The position numbers were made by a program, and so were the translations under genes. This document shows positions 4,110 through 6,819 of a stretch of DNA of 64,000 nt, one piece after another. Source of the stretch: Tessaracoccus timonensis (GTDB lineage: Bacteria; Actinomycetota; Actinomycetes; Propionibacteriales; Propionibacteriaceae); the NCBI RefSeq assembly GCF_900343145.1, contig NZ_LT996886.1:1860001-1924000 (forward strand). The letters run 5' to 3'. How positions within the stretch are numbered: the stretch's first letter is position 1; each line of letters opens with the position of its first letter. The notes under the pieces are model-generated. The model saw only the letters and a program-made list of their open reading frames with translations, ran no database searches and was not told the DNA's origin.

Positions 4110-4937
4110 GTGCACGCGCCCATCCAGCTGCGCTGGTCGGACATGGATGCGCAGCGCCACGTGAACAACGCGCGCATCGCCGACTACCTGCAGGAGGCGC
4201 GCGTGCACCTGCTGCGCGACTCCGGCATCCTCGAGCAGGGCGTCGTGGTCGTGGGGCAGCAGGTGATGTTCCGGCGGTCAGTCGAGTACTCGCCCGAGCC
4301 GCTCGACGTCGAGCTCGTCATCACTCACCTCGGCGCCGCACGCGTGCAGATCGGCTACGTGCTTCGGCAATTCGACGAAGTGGTCACCGAGGCGCGCACG
4401 GTGCTGGCGCCGTTTGACTTCGATCAGCAGCGCCCCGTGCGCCTCACCCCTGAGATGCGCGCGTACTTCGGCCAACACAGGGCTGTGTGGGATCCGTTTC
4501 CGGAGCTCACGGCCCCGGCGCTCGAGGGGCGGGGGATTGCGACGAGGCATCACACCAGGTGGACCGACCTCGACCGCTACGGGCACGTCAACAACATGCT
4601 CGTGTTCGAGTACCTGCAGCAGGCGCGCATCGAGGTGTCACCGCAGTGGAGCCCGACGTTGGCTCGCCCCGGCAGCGGCGAGGCCGAGTACAACTGGCTC
4701 GTCGTTCGGCAAGACGTCGACTACCTGGCTCAGATTCACCACAGCTTCGAGCCCCTCACCGTGCGCACGGCGCTCACCCATCTTGGGCGCACCTCGCTGA
4801 AGTCGGCTGCTGAAGTGTGTTCGCCCGACGGAACCTTGCTGGCGCGCGGGCGGACCGTCGTGGTGTGTACGGATGCACAGTTTCGTCCGTGTGCGTTGCC
4901 GGATCGGGAGTCGCTGGAGCAGCACCTGGTGGCGTGA
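4110..4937 (+). CDS. Acyl-CoA thioesterase with two hotdog domains
   Basis: 275 residues starting with GTG at 4110, 2 nt after the fadD stop. Two 4-hydroxybenzoyl-CoA thioesterase-like hotdog folds are fused: the first shows SDMDAQRHVNN near residue 11, the second TDLDRYGHVNN near residue 150. In both, Asp followed by HVNN is the usual active-site and CoA-binding helix region. It should hydrolyse acyl-CoA and so balance the ligase upstream; chain-length preference is unknown. The last ~100 bp of this gene are partly duplicated downstream at 6068-6128, a scar of the insertion that placed the Abi_2 gene between this gene and the sirtuin. Confidence 0.85.
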   Translation: MHAPIQLRWSDMDAQRHVNNARIADYLQEARVHLLRDSGILEQGVVVVGQQVMFRRSVEYSPEPLDVELVITHLGAARVQIGYVLRQFDEVVTEARTVLAPFDFDQQRPVRLTPEMRAYFGQHRAVWDPFPELTAPALEGRGIATRHHTRWTDLDRYGHVNNMLVFEYLQQARIEVSPQWSPTLARPGSGEAEYNWLVVRQDVDYLAQIHHSFEPLTVRTALTHLGRTSLKSAAEVCSPDGTLLARGRTVVVCTDAQFRPCALPDRESLEQHLVA

Positions 4938-4970
4938 TTCGTGCCAGGATGAGGCCATGGCACGTATCGT
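4841..4970 (+). repeat. Upstream copy of duplicated insertion-flanking sequence
   Basis: Two blocks here recur at 6068-6128 on the other side of the Abi_2 gene. Positions 4841-4863 (inside the thioesterase 3' end) match 6068-6090 exactly over 23 bp. Positions 4933-4970 match 6091-6128 with two mismatches. In the downstream copy the two blocks are fused, with the ~69 bp between them lost at a shared GTGG. The block at 4957-4970 contains ATG GCA CGT ATC GT, the first codons of the sirtuin, so a truncated cobB start remains here and the intact gene follows the insert. Confidence 0.85.
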
Positions 4971-4989
4971 TTCCTCCGCCTGGGAGACA

Positions 4990-5082
4990 CCAGTGCTAGG
5001 AGACGAGTGTGATAAAATTACTACAACCGTTCAGCCCGCCTCGACTCCGCTCGAGAGTGGGCTGGATCTCTTTCTAGGCTGG
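4990..5082 (+). ncRNA. Candidate structured RNA upstream of Abi_2 gene
   Basis: The 93 bases just before the Abi_2 start can fold with a closing helix and an internal hairpin. 4990-4999 (CCAGTGCTAG) pairs with 5074-5082 (CTAGGCTGG) with one bulge. 5032-5037 CAGCCC pairs with 5059-5064 GGGCTG and 5040-5044 CTCGA with 5051-5055 TCGAG. The A/T-rich segment GATAAAATTACTACAACC (about 5011-5028) remains single-stranded. A conserved RNA motif is known upstream of abiF-type genes; equating this fold with it is inference, since covariation could not be tested. It might instead be a 5' regulatory leader. Confidence 0.5.
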
Positions 5083-5090
5083 TAACTGCG

Positions 5091-6038
5091 GTGACCAAAC
5101 CAGTAAAACAAGCAGCAACTATTCCCGAACACATTGCGTTGCTGCGCTCTCGCGGCATGGAAGTTGAGTGCGAATTGGCGCACCAATGGTTGAGCTACGT
5201 AAGCTACTACCGGCTGTCGGCGTATTGGTATCCCGCTAGGAGACTGGGCCGTTGCGGCAACCGAGATGATGAATTCAACCCCGGCACCAGATTTAGCGAT
5301 GTTGCTGCGCTCTACGAGGCGGACAGGAAACTACGCGCACTCGTGCACGACGGCATGGAGCGTATTGAAATTGCTATGCGCACTCGCATAGGCGAAGCTC
5401 TCATCGATGGCGATCCCCTTGCCTATGTTGATCCACGACGGTTCCGCCCCACCTTTGATCACCAACGATGGATGAGAACTATCACGAGGCGCGTTGACCG
5501 CGCAGGTCGCAACAATGAGGCAATCCGGCATTATCAGGCGAAGTATGACAGCCAATACCCTTTTTGGGTGCTTGCTGAAGTGCTCGACTTTGCCGATATT
5601 TCACGCCTGTATGAAGGGTTGTTGGTTGCGGACCAGCGTCGTGTTGCCGAAGAACTGGGAATTGTCGTCGACCTGGCAGATTTATCGAAGAACCAGCAAC
5701 GCAAGGTAAAGCTCCAATCACCGCTTGTGCGATGGATGGAGCAGCTTACGATTGTTCGCAATATTTGCGCACACCACGCTCGATTGTGGAATAAGTCATT
5801 TGCGCCAGCCCCCACCGCAGCGTTGCGAACGCAGTCAGGCTTCGCCGGGCTACCTGATGGGCAGAGCGAACAAGTCTTTGGCGTGCTCACCGTGATGACG
5901 CACCTCATTCGAGTAGCATCGCCCGGGAAAACTTGGCCCAGGAAAATTGCGAATCTCATCAGCGAGAGCTTCCTCCCCAATCCGCTCGTAGCTCCCTCAG
6001 CGTTGGGACTACCAGAGCCCTGGGCAGGCACCTTTTAA
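5091..6038 (+). CDS. Abi_2 family (AbiD/AbiF-like) abortive-infection HEPN protein
   Basis: 315 residues from a GTG start, the usual length for Abi_2 proteins. The N-terminus has the family pattern: a short basic leader, then IPEHIALLRSRGMEVE, LSYVSYYRLSAYWYP and YEADRKLRALV. In the C-terminal half, R223-N224-x3-H228 (RNICAHH) is an Rx4H HEPN ribonuclease motif with the polar residue expected after Arg. Abi_2 genes block phage growth by stopping the infected cell; the RNA target here is unknown. Base composition is visibly lower in G+C than the neighbours, and the gene lies between duplicated flanks, so it was acquired by transfer. A foldable RNA lies directly upstream. Confidence 0.85.
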   Translation: MTKPVKQAATIPEHIALLRSRGMEVECELAHQWLSYVSYYRLSAYWYPARRLGRCGNRDDEFNPGTRFSDVAALYEADRKLRALVHDGMERIEIAMRTRIGEALIDGDPLAYVDPRRFRPTFDHQRWMRTITRRVDRAGRNNEAIRHYQAKYDSQYPFWVLAEVLDFADISRLYEGLLVADQRRVAEELGIVVDLADLSKNQQRKVKLQSPLVRWMEQLTIVRNICAHHARLWNKSFAPAPTAALRTQSGFAGLPDGQSEQVFGVLTVMTHLIRVASPGKTWPRKIANLISESFLPNPLVAPSALGLPEPWAGTF

Positions 6039-6067
6039 GCCTCTTAGCACCACGCCGCAGACCGCGC

Positions 6068-6128
6068 GGCGCGCGGGCGGACCGTCGTGGCGTGATCCGT
6101 GCCAGGATGAGGGCATGGCACGTATCGT
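6068..6128 (+). repeat. Downstream copy of duplicated insertion-flanking sequence
   Basis: This segment joins 23 bp identical to 4841-4863 (inside the thioesterase gene) to 38 bp that match 4933-4970 with two changes. It therefore represents the original thioesterase/cobB junction with an internal ~69 bp deletion. It supplies the intact ATG and upstream region of the sirtuin gene. Confidence 0.85.
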
Positions 6129-6819
6129 CATTCTCACGGGCGCGGGCGTTTCAGCGGAGTCGGGCATCCGCACGTTTCGCGACGCCAACGGACTGTGGGA
6201 GAACCACGACATCACCGACGTCGCCACGCCGGAGGGGTTCGAGGCCGACCCAGCGCTCGTGAACGAGTTCTACAACCAGCGCCGCCGTCAGCTGTGCTCA
6301 GATGCGGTGCGCCCGAATGCTGCGCACGAGGCGCTCGCGCGGCTACAGCGCGAACTGCCCGGCGAGGTGCTTATCGTCACGCAAAACATTGATGACCTGC
6401 ACGAACGCGCCGGCGCCACCGATGTCATCCACATGCACGGCGAGCTGCTCAACCAATGGTGCCTGGCGTGCGGCGAGCGCACGCATACCCGCGACGACAT
6501 CGCCGAACACACCTCGTGCCCTGCCTGCGGCGAACGGGGAAGGCTGCGCCCCGACGTGGTCTGGTTTGGCGAGGTCCCCTACGAGATGGACCGAATCAGC
6601 AACGAGTTTGAGCGCTGCACGCTGTTCGCGTCCATCGGCACCTCGGGGGAGGTGTATCCCGCCGCCGCCTTCGTGCAGTACGCAGTCGCAGTAGGAGCGC
6701 ACACCGTCGAACTGAATCTCGACGCATCGAGAGCGTTCAGCTACTTCCACGAAGTCCGGCAGGGGCTCGCGTCGGTGGAGGTGCCGAAATGGGTCGACGA
6801 AGTGCTGGCCGGCAGCTGA
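6115..6819 (+). CDS. cobB: NAD-dependent protein deacylase, class III sirtuin
   Basis: 234 residues, typical of short bacterial CobB. The NAD-binding motif GAGVSAESGIRTFRD starts at residue 8; QNIDDLHERAG and HMHGEL follow, H108 being the catalytic histidine. Four cysteines (C116, C119, C135, C138) form the zinc site. The pair Y53-x-x-R56 (FYNQRR) is the class III signature that binds acidic acyl groups, so desuccinylase/demalonylase as well as deacetylase activity is expected. The gene overlaps the duplicated segment that follows the Abi_2 insertion. It ends 4 bp from the convergent exonuclease gene, with no room for a terminator between them. Confidence 0.92.
   Translation: MARIVILTGAGVSAESGIRTFRDANGLWENHDITDVATPEGFEADPALVNEFYNQRRRQLCSDAVRPNAAHEALARLQRELPGEVLIVTQNIDDLHERAGATDVIHMHGELLNQWCLACGERTHTRDDIAEHTSCPACGERGRLRPDVVWFGEVPYEMDRISNEFERCTLFASIGTSGEVYPAAAFVQYAVAVGAHTVELNLDASRAFSYFHEVRQGLASVEVPKWVDEVLAGS

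Follow-up and report, generated by a model that had tools for sequence, protein, structure and literature searches.

An Abi_2 gene in the genome of Tessaracoccus timonensis is directly preceded by DNA that can be folded as RNA, and this raises the question of whether gene and RNA together make up a toxin with an RNA antitoxin and, if so, of which kind. The gene lies in a stretch of 64,000 nucleotides (contig NZ_LT996886.1, positions 1,860,001 to 1,924,000), here called the window, to which all coordinates without a contig label refer. As judged by sequence comparison, the locus is quite probably a small mobile module of the type III-like toxin–antitoxin (abortive infection) sort, of the AbiF/AbiD kind, with a new class of RNA, here termed class I. 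The features of the locus are as follows:

4929-4970, + strand: left copy of the direct repeat of 42 bp (40/42) that brackets the inserted module
5013-5018, + strand: putative -10 element TAAAAT (TGA-TAAAAT) of the RNA promoter; TANNNT is conserved at the same place
5025-5074, + strand: class I antitoxin-like RNA of about 50 nt, its start placed at the AA and its end in the U-rich tail
5029-5067, + strand: hairpin made up of a lower helix (5029-5039/5057-5067, conserved) and an apical helix (5040-5045/5050-5055, variable)
5068-5075, + strand: pyrimidine/U-rich tail CUCUUUCU; YUYU in 27/27 loci with a cognate gene
5091-6038, + strand: Abi_2/AbiD HEPN ribonuclease-like gene, 315 aa, GTG start, predicted toxin
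6087-6128, + strand: right copy of the 42-bp direct repeat, where the SIR2 gene starts

The product of 5091-6038 is a member of the Abi_2/AbiD-AbiF family by profile, motif, and fold. The sequence-only reading had assigned this gene to Abi_2, and the assignment is borne out by PF07751 (E 9.1e-50, 169.9 bits against a cut-off of 25.6) and by the AbiD profile of PADLOC, which carries no stated cut-off (E 5.9e-59, 198 bits); a search of NCBIfam at E ≤ 0.1 gave no match. The HEPN motif placed at R223 and H228 stands as well: R223, N224, A227, and H228 (R-x4-H, as R223-N-x-x-A-H228) are invariant in 33/33 aligned proteins and R223 and H228 also in a separate alignment of 20/20, the window protein being included in both. 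A sequence search of the PDB at E ≤ 1 returned a sole match, 8VZ6 (E 4.5e-32, covering residues 12-311), an entry titled as a PbAbiF dimer bound to ncRNA. An AlphaFold2 model built from 33 sequences (pLDDT 94.6, pTM 0.90) found chain A of the same entry with Foldseek (E 7.8e-15, TM 0.76/0.80), as the sole match at E ≤ 0.001; the runner-up stood at E 0.85. From motif and fold, the product would be an RNase harmful to the cell. The genome (2.76 Mb) contains one Abi_2 gene.

Directly upstream, the hairpin earlier drawn at 5032-5064 proved stronger than had been claimed, with proper limits of 5029-5067 and a z-score of -5.18 when 5025-5076 is folded alone. The stretch ahead of it, earlier described as A-rich and unpaired, contains the -10 sequence TAAAAT. 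A TANNNT box occurs at the same place (with one base of slack either way) in 27/27 loci with an intact cognate gene, and its T, A, and T are kept in 24/25, 23/25, and 24/25 sequences, respectively, in an ungapped comparison. The conserved position of this box places the RNA start near 5025, where the AA at 5025-5026 is nearly invariant (24/25 sequences). No clear -35 element was seen in the window, and a simple sigma-70 promoter scan of the RNA region called nothing. The window and its 11 closest relatives thus have in common TANNNT, AA, and then GUUCAGCC..(stem)..GGCUGGAUCUCUUU. The eight-base tail holds a mean of 5.1 T across the 27 cognate loci, and a simple terminator scan calls none at the window; the tail is a possible partial terminator and/or protein contact. 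What is found upstream of the Abi_2 gene is accordingly a structured RNA with a predicted promoter of its own, as in type III systems. With the covariance model R1, whose source alignment includes the window RNA, this RNA scores 78.4 bits; it is the one strong class I match in the genome (next best 16.1 bits), and the tandem antitoxin repeats that mark the ToxIN family were not found at the locus.

A second, outer helix (4990-4999/5074-5082), which the sequence-only reading had taken to close the structure, was dropped. It can be drawn in the window sequence, but among 25 sequences tested, including the window, pairing rises above shuffles only in the window (3/500) and in L081 (2/500), the next best being L047 (42/500), so that 23/25 have no comparable pairing. 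Moreover, the transcript start as placed by the -10 box is 26-35 bases downstream of the 5′ arm, which would therefore not be part of the RNA.

Conservation of the inner hairpin was assessed in relatives chosen independently of it. The 11 closest relatives (50%-76% protein identity) were fetched by protein alone, before their upstream DNA was compared, and a relative of the window hairpin lies upstream of Abi_2 in all 11; the same holds for 14/14 protein-fetched relatives at 39%-76% identity, a plasmid match (H2) being left out. RNAalifold gave a 17-pair hairpin on 13 sequences. R1, built from an early alignment, was then used to collect further class I RNAs, which yielded 58 places and 56 distinct sequences (L099 being identical to L005 and L079 to L080). 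In these 56, 96.0% of cells are paired and both sides have changed in 9/17 pairs, which answers the earlier call for covariation in this helix. The covariation score is 0.368 against 0.147 in shuffles (sd 0.009; 0/500 as high) and at most 0.096 with the partner slid, in an alignment that follows the structure and against shuffles that ignore the relatedness of the sequences. A plain MAFFT alignment of 25 sequences, made with no fitting to structure, gave 96.2% paired and a score of 0.277 against 0.155. Across the 27 loci with intact cognate genes, mean pairwise identity is 88.8% for the lower stem, AA, and tail, and 47.4% for the apical stem; the figures are 51.1% for the protein, 33.2% for codon position 3, and 28.4% for upstream DNA. 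No other part of the module is thus as well conserved as the RNA.

Beyond class I, 36 more distant Abi_2 genes (27%-38% identity) each have a hairpin of another sequence upstream, as seen by eye, a step that had no shuffle control and from which the automatic pick differed in at least five cases (L017, L020, L028, L029, and L037). The Rfam abiF family, RF03085, explains a few of these. Others were sorted into classes B-F by patterns written after the upstream DNA had been viewed; an Rfam scan at E ≤ 1, which covered 24 of the 26 loci so labelled, matched none of their hairpins. Classes D and E may be distant kin of class I, as they score 16-22 bits with R1.

In a tree of 67 Abi_2 proteins (60 labelled and seven unlabelled, with four duplicates dropped), each of the seven RNA classes—I (27 proteins), B (9), RF03085 (7), C (6), D (4), E (4), and F (3)—forms one side of a branch with a support of 93-100. 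RNA class changes on the tree six times, which is the minimum, against a shuffled mean of 31.1 (0/200 as low), a test inflated by near-copies; three of the RF03085 labels (L020, L039, and L040) lie below the Rfam gathering score. RNA class nonetheless tracks protein clade in 60/60 labelled proteins, and the absence of any exception across seven groups is strong evidence despite the near-copies. This suggests that each Abi_2 clade may recognise its own RNA. At least five hairpin classes beyond class I and RF03085 are thus seen ahead of actinobacterial Abi_2 genes (L015-L041 and L085-L093), each tied to one clade. Three loci (L034, L052, and L054) combine two classes, with class I RNA placed directly before an Abi_2 gene whose own RNA is of a different class; we read these as stacked or replaced modules.

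The relation of class I to RF03085 is one of likeness, not membership. In the window, RF03085 has no match at its gathering score (37 bits) and, over 4900-6150, none even at E ≤ 10, so the Rfam search earlier proposed for the leader came back empty. Nor did the 11 close loci give a match at E ≤ 3, in a scan that does find phage phiC2 (37.6 bits), and class I was on these grounds ruled out as a member of the family. RF03085 exceeds its cut-off in 5/198 genomes of the window's family, and it matches before other Abi_2 genes. Like class I, the RF03085 RNA sits ahead of Abi_2 genes and has a stem ending in a U-rich tail, but most of the matches displayed contain a CCUCUC...GAUGC element that is absent from class I. 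Of the earlier proposal of an actinobacterial abiF RNA, the pairing with a HEPN Abi_2 gene survives, and the RF03085 motif and the outer helix do not. There is good support for a HEPN Abi_2 toxin that has an actinobacterial counterpart of abiF RNA as its partner; it comes from conservation, covariation, the place of the promoter, co-inheritance of RNA class with protein clade, and the fold match to 8VZ6.

An AbiF toxin with an RNA antitoxin is a known kind of system; the class I RNA is unmatched in Rfam 15. AbiF-AbiFr (8VZ6) and C. difficile AbiF-RCd22 share with the window a HEPN Abi_2 protein and, upstream, a small structured RNA with a promoter; the class I RNA differs from AbiFr and RCd22 in sequence and shape, being a single, plain hairpin in which the lower stem is conserved, without an RF03085 motif. 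As for the ToxIN system, ToxN is to our knowledge not an Abi_2/HEPN protein. Its antitoxin logic is nevertheless like that proposed here, and pseudo-ToxI of phage phiTE is a phage-borne antitoxin copy (PMC3475682); the ToxIN antitoxin is described as a set of tandem repeats (PMC8860590), whereas class I is a single hairpin. The full-length RCd22 transcript is given as 132 nt with two motifs (PMC12373285), compared with the roughly 50 nt estimated for class I. C. difficile AbiF is described as toxic and as neutralised by its upstream RNA (PMC12373285), and in the AbiF-AbiFr complex the RNA is described as inhibiting AbiF (PMC12737573). In the literature searched, seen largely in forms short of full text, no report of class I RNA or of the inter-tRNA phage copies described below was recognised.

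By analogy with C. difficile AbiF and AbiF-AbiFr (PMC12373285, PMC12737573), the class I RNA would block its HEPN RNase until infection frees the enzyme. Most transcription would end after the hairpin, giving an excess of free RNA, and read-through would provide the toxin mRNA. The RNA would use its conserved lower stem and pyrimidine tail to bind the HEPN dimer, blocking the R/H active site. Infection, by upsetting host transcription or RNA stability, would cause the short RNA to run out, and the freed RNase would cut RNA and stop the cell. In favour of this antitoxin model are an RNA more conserved than its protein, its covariation, the -10 box in 27/27 loci, the match of class to clade, and the likeness to 8VZ6; against it stand the lack of a promoter or terminator call by simple scans, the single hairpin, and the 16/56 class I RNAs that stand without a gene in cellular genomes.

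Class I RNAs are sparsely distributed. R1 at 35 bits or more finds them in 13/198 genomes of the window's family (14 places); matches below 27 bits in 12/198 were treated as noise. At E ≤ 1e-4, R1 matches 4/394 genomes drawn from the window's class, two of which belong to the window's own family, and 25/245 genomes of another family, including the Kocuria salsicia locus (L099, L005). Class I RNA also occurs with Abi_2 on Mycolicibacterium and Rhodococcus plasmids (L082-L084), and there shows, in the lower stem, a compensatory replacement of A-U by G-C. Plasmid searches with the window's own module DNA gave nothing useful, nor did those with its RNA (five short matches).

The 56 distinct class I places comprise 27 with an intact cognate Abi_2, five with broken or partial genes, three before an Abi_2 of another class, one at a contig end, and 20 without a detectable Abi_2 (16 cellular and four viral); these counts are not rates, since the set was gathered largely with R1. 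The contigs of L079 and L067 end 111-137 bases past the RNA, too early for an intact gene to be seen. The 16 cellular solo RNAs include L053, which has a weak match of 30 residues at a distance of 760 bases. The -10 box is kept in 11/16 and 95.1% of pair cells are formed, and these solo RNAs may be remnants or kept antitoxins. With 16/56 class I RNAs in cellular genomes lacking a detectable Abi_2 downstream, the pairing of RNA and gene is not obligatory. L050, whose flanks are shared with viral contig L081, is probably a prophage. In three genomes of one genus (L112, L113, and L118), a solo class I RNA whose stem is largely intact, with no adjacent Abi_2, is convergent with a 489-aa ORF, the start of which is similar in 3/3.

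Solo RNAs are also found in phages. Pattern scans of viral contigs showed class I-like RNA in L096, L097, and L098, and none of the three records contains an Abi_2 gene anywhere. L097 is Mycobacterium phage GuuelaD (RNA at L097:137-176), in which the hairpin takes up the whole space from tRNA-Gly to tRNA-Lys; in phage Faith1 (L138), likewise with no Abi_2 nearby, the order is tRNA-Gly at 1930-2004, RNA at 2008-2047, and tRNA-Lys at 2047-2124. Counting duplicates, 21 Mycobacterium phage records were matched, with tRNA-Gly and tRNA-Lys under the match in 21/21. The assignment of these phages to cluster L has two bases: one of the 21, Gabriela, is named in PMC10865867, and the subfamily name of Faith1 is Lclasvirinae. 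Rhodococcus Rerduovirus phages likewise carry class I-like RNA between two tRNA genes (R1 bits: Takoda 27.2, RGL3 29.1, Hiro 37.7, and BobbyDazzler 37.7), as in these copies, which have no adjacent Abi_2:

L147:299-341, Rhodococcus phage copy between tRNA genes
L149:307-339, Rhodococcus phage copy between tRNA genes
L139:1506-1537, Rhodococcus phage copy between tRNA genes

A search with the Hiro RNA returned 58 records, of which 41, duplicates included, are Rhodococcus and 17 (11 Aeromonas, two Gordonia, two Microbacterium, and two others) were left out; two tRNA annotations lie under the match in 38/40 of the Rhodococcus records listed. The two remaining viral contigs differ in setting. In Gordonia phage Phinally/Leonard (L098), the RNA lacks a -10 box and is antisense, overlapping the final 10 bases of gp17 together with the gap that follows; the L096 RNA has a -10 box and adjoins an ORF which we take, by its start, to encode an endolysin.

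By raw count, chance alone would be expected to produce between 1 and 11 matches to the strict two-part pattern in the phage collection. Against chance stand the additional pairing in the stem, the occurrence between tRNAs in two groups of phages, and a compensatory change at one pair, which is A-U in Takoda and G-C in Hiro and RGL3. In seven viral copies, L097 and L138 being near-copies among them, 97.2% of cells are paired, and covariation is 0.241 against 0.129 in shuffles (0/500 as high).

Several other phage matches were set aside. BLAST matches in Propionibacterium phages PFR1/PFR2 were rejected as chance, that in PFR1 lying inside the endolysin frame, where this overlaps the holin gene, and having no R1 match; short Escherichia and unnamed-phage matches to the GuuelaD-type RNA, a Rhodobacter match, and viral contig L141 (no R1 match) were likewise treated as chance. 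A 21-base match in a Microbacterium phage and class C matches at E about 8, at least 15 of 26 and all of those listed lying in tail genes, were not taken as evidence, and the same goes for a stretch resembling class B RNA in Curtobacterium phages Olliecat/Squircle (E 0.3). In Olliecat this stretch (L143:1501-1537), which may be a chance match, lies in a gap without annotation, ahead of the tail assembly chaperone genes. Phage searches with the window RNA itself or with the L096 RNA (four short matches), and a search of viral contigs by protein, gave nothing useful.

The phage copies may have a use of their own. Plasmids of Mycolicibacterium and Rhodococcus carry matching pairs of RNA and toxin, and phages of Mycobacterium and Rhodococcus carry the RNA without a toxin. 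Of the 56 phage records that contain a relative of Abi_2, not one bears the name of a Mycobacterium, Rhodococcus, or Gordonia phage. The tRNA clusters of cluster L phages are described as likely to be expressed in lytic growth (PMC10865867), and one phage is known to make use of a copied type III antitoxin RNA (PMC3475682), though class I copies, unlike the pseudo-ToxI of phiTE, sit between tRNA genes. These three points—the name count, tRNA expression, and the known antitoxin copy—make a decoy reading plausible, and there is perhaps an even chance that the class I antitoxin RNAs of actinophages are stolen or mimicked and would be released by tRNA processing during infection to disarm the host Abi_2.

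Other roles for the hairpin may be weighed against that of an antitoxin. It might be only a cis-acting leader of the abi mRNA, an attenuator or translational switch with no action in trans; this is unlikely, in that such a switch need not keep a near-invariant lower stem across families or track the protein clade, and the RNA also occurs without the gene, in both cells and phages. The hairpin does suit a leader by its place, after the promoter and before the gene within the 5′ leader, and by its U-rich tail. There is also a precedent in L. lactis AbiD1, a relative in so far as the PADLOC AbiD profile matches the window protein: its gene is controlled by a structured 5′ UTR, described as exerting translational control (PMC12373285), whereas the window RNA is a proposed antitoxin. 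An ordinary terminator or read-through barrier, travelling with a mobile gene, would account for a strong hairpin with a U-rich tail but is very improbable: the terminator scan calls none, no terminator needs a stem of 89% identity or a promoter ending six bases ahead, and the Rhodococcus phages keep the core between tRNA genes without a U-run. That the RNA is a cofactor or guide-like activator of Abi_2 is equally hard to credit, as the two AbiF RNAs described are inhibitors (PMC12737573, PMC12373285) and class I varies much only in its apical stem-loop, with no obvious guide segment, even if AbiD/F proteins have been placed close to the RNA-guided Cas13 (PMC12165695).

If the antitoxin model is true, the RNA partners of Abi_2/AbiF would be more diverse than a single Rfam family suggests, and the pairs of RNA class and protein clade would form a natural test set for RNA recognition by HEPN nucleases, on a proposed road to Cas13. 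The inter-tRNA copies would then be one more reason why phages have tRNA arrays, and would make decoy antitoxins easy to test in laboratory phages.

Finally, the flanks bear on how the module reached its place. It occupies about 4971-6086, between a thioesterase gene and a SIR2 gene, and is bounded by the 42-bp imperfect repeat, which is composed of the thioesterase end and the SIR2 start. In genus relatives L127 and L130, the two genes are spaced 40-48 bases apart, and in L129 the spacing is larger; in 6/9 relatives, the thioesterase is absent from the available stretch. Given the flanking repeat and the nearness of the two genes in relatives, RNA and toxin seem to have arrived as one unit with no other evident gene. 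A second repeat, of 27 bp, is present at 4841-4867/6068-6094 (26/27).
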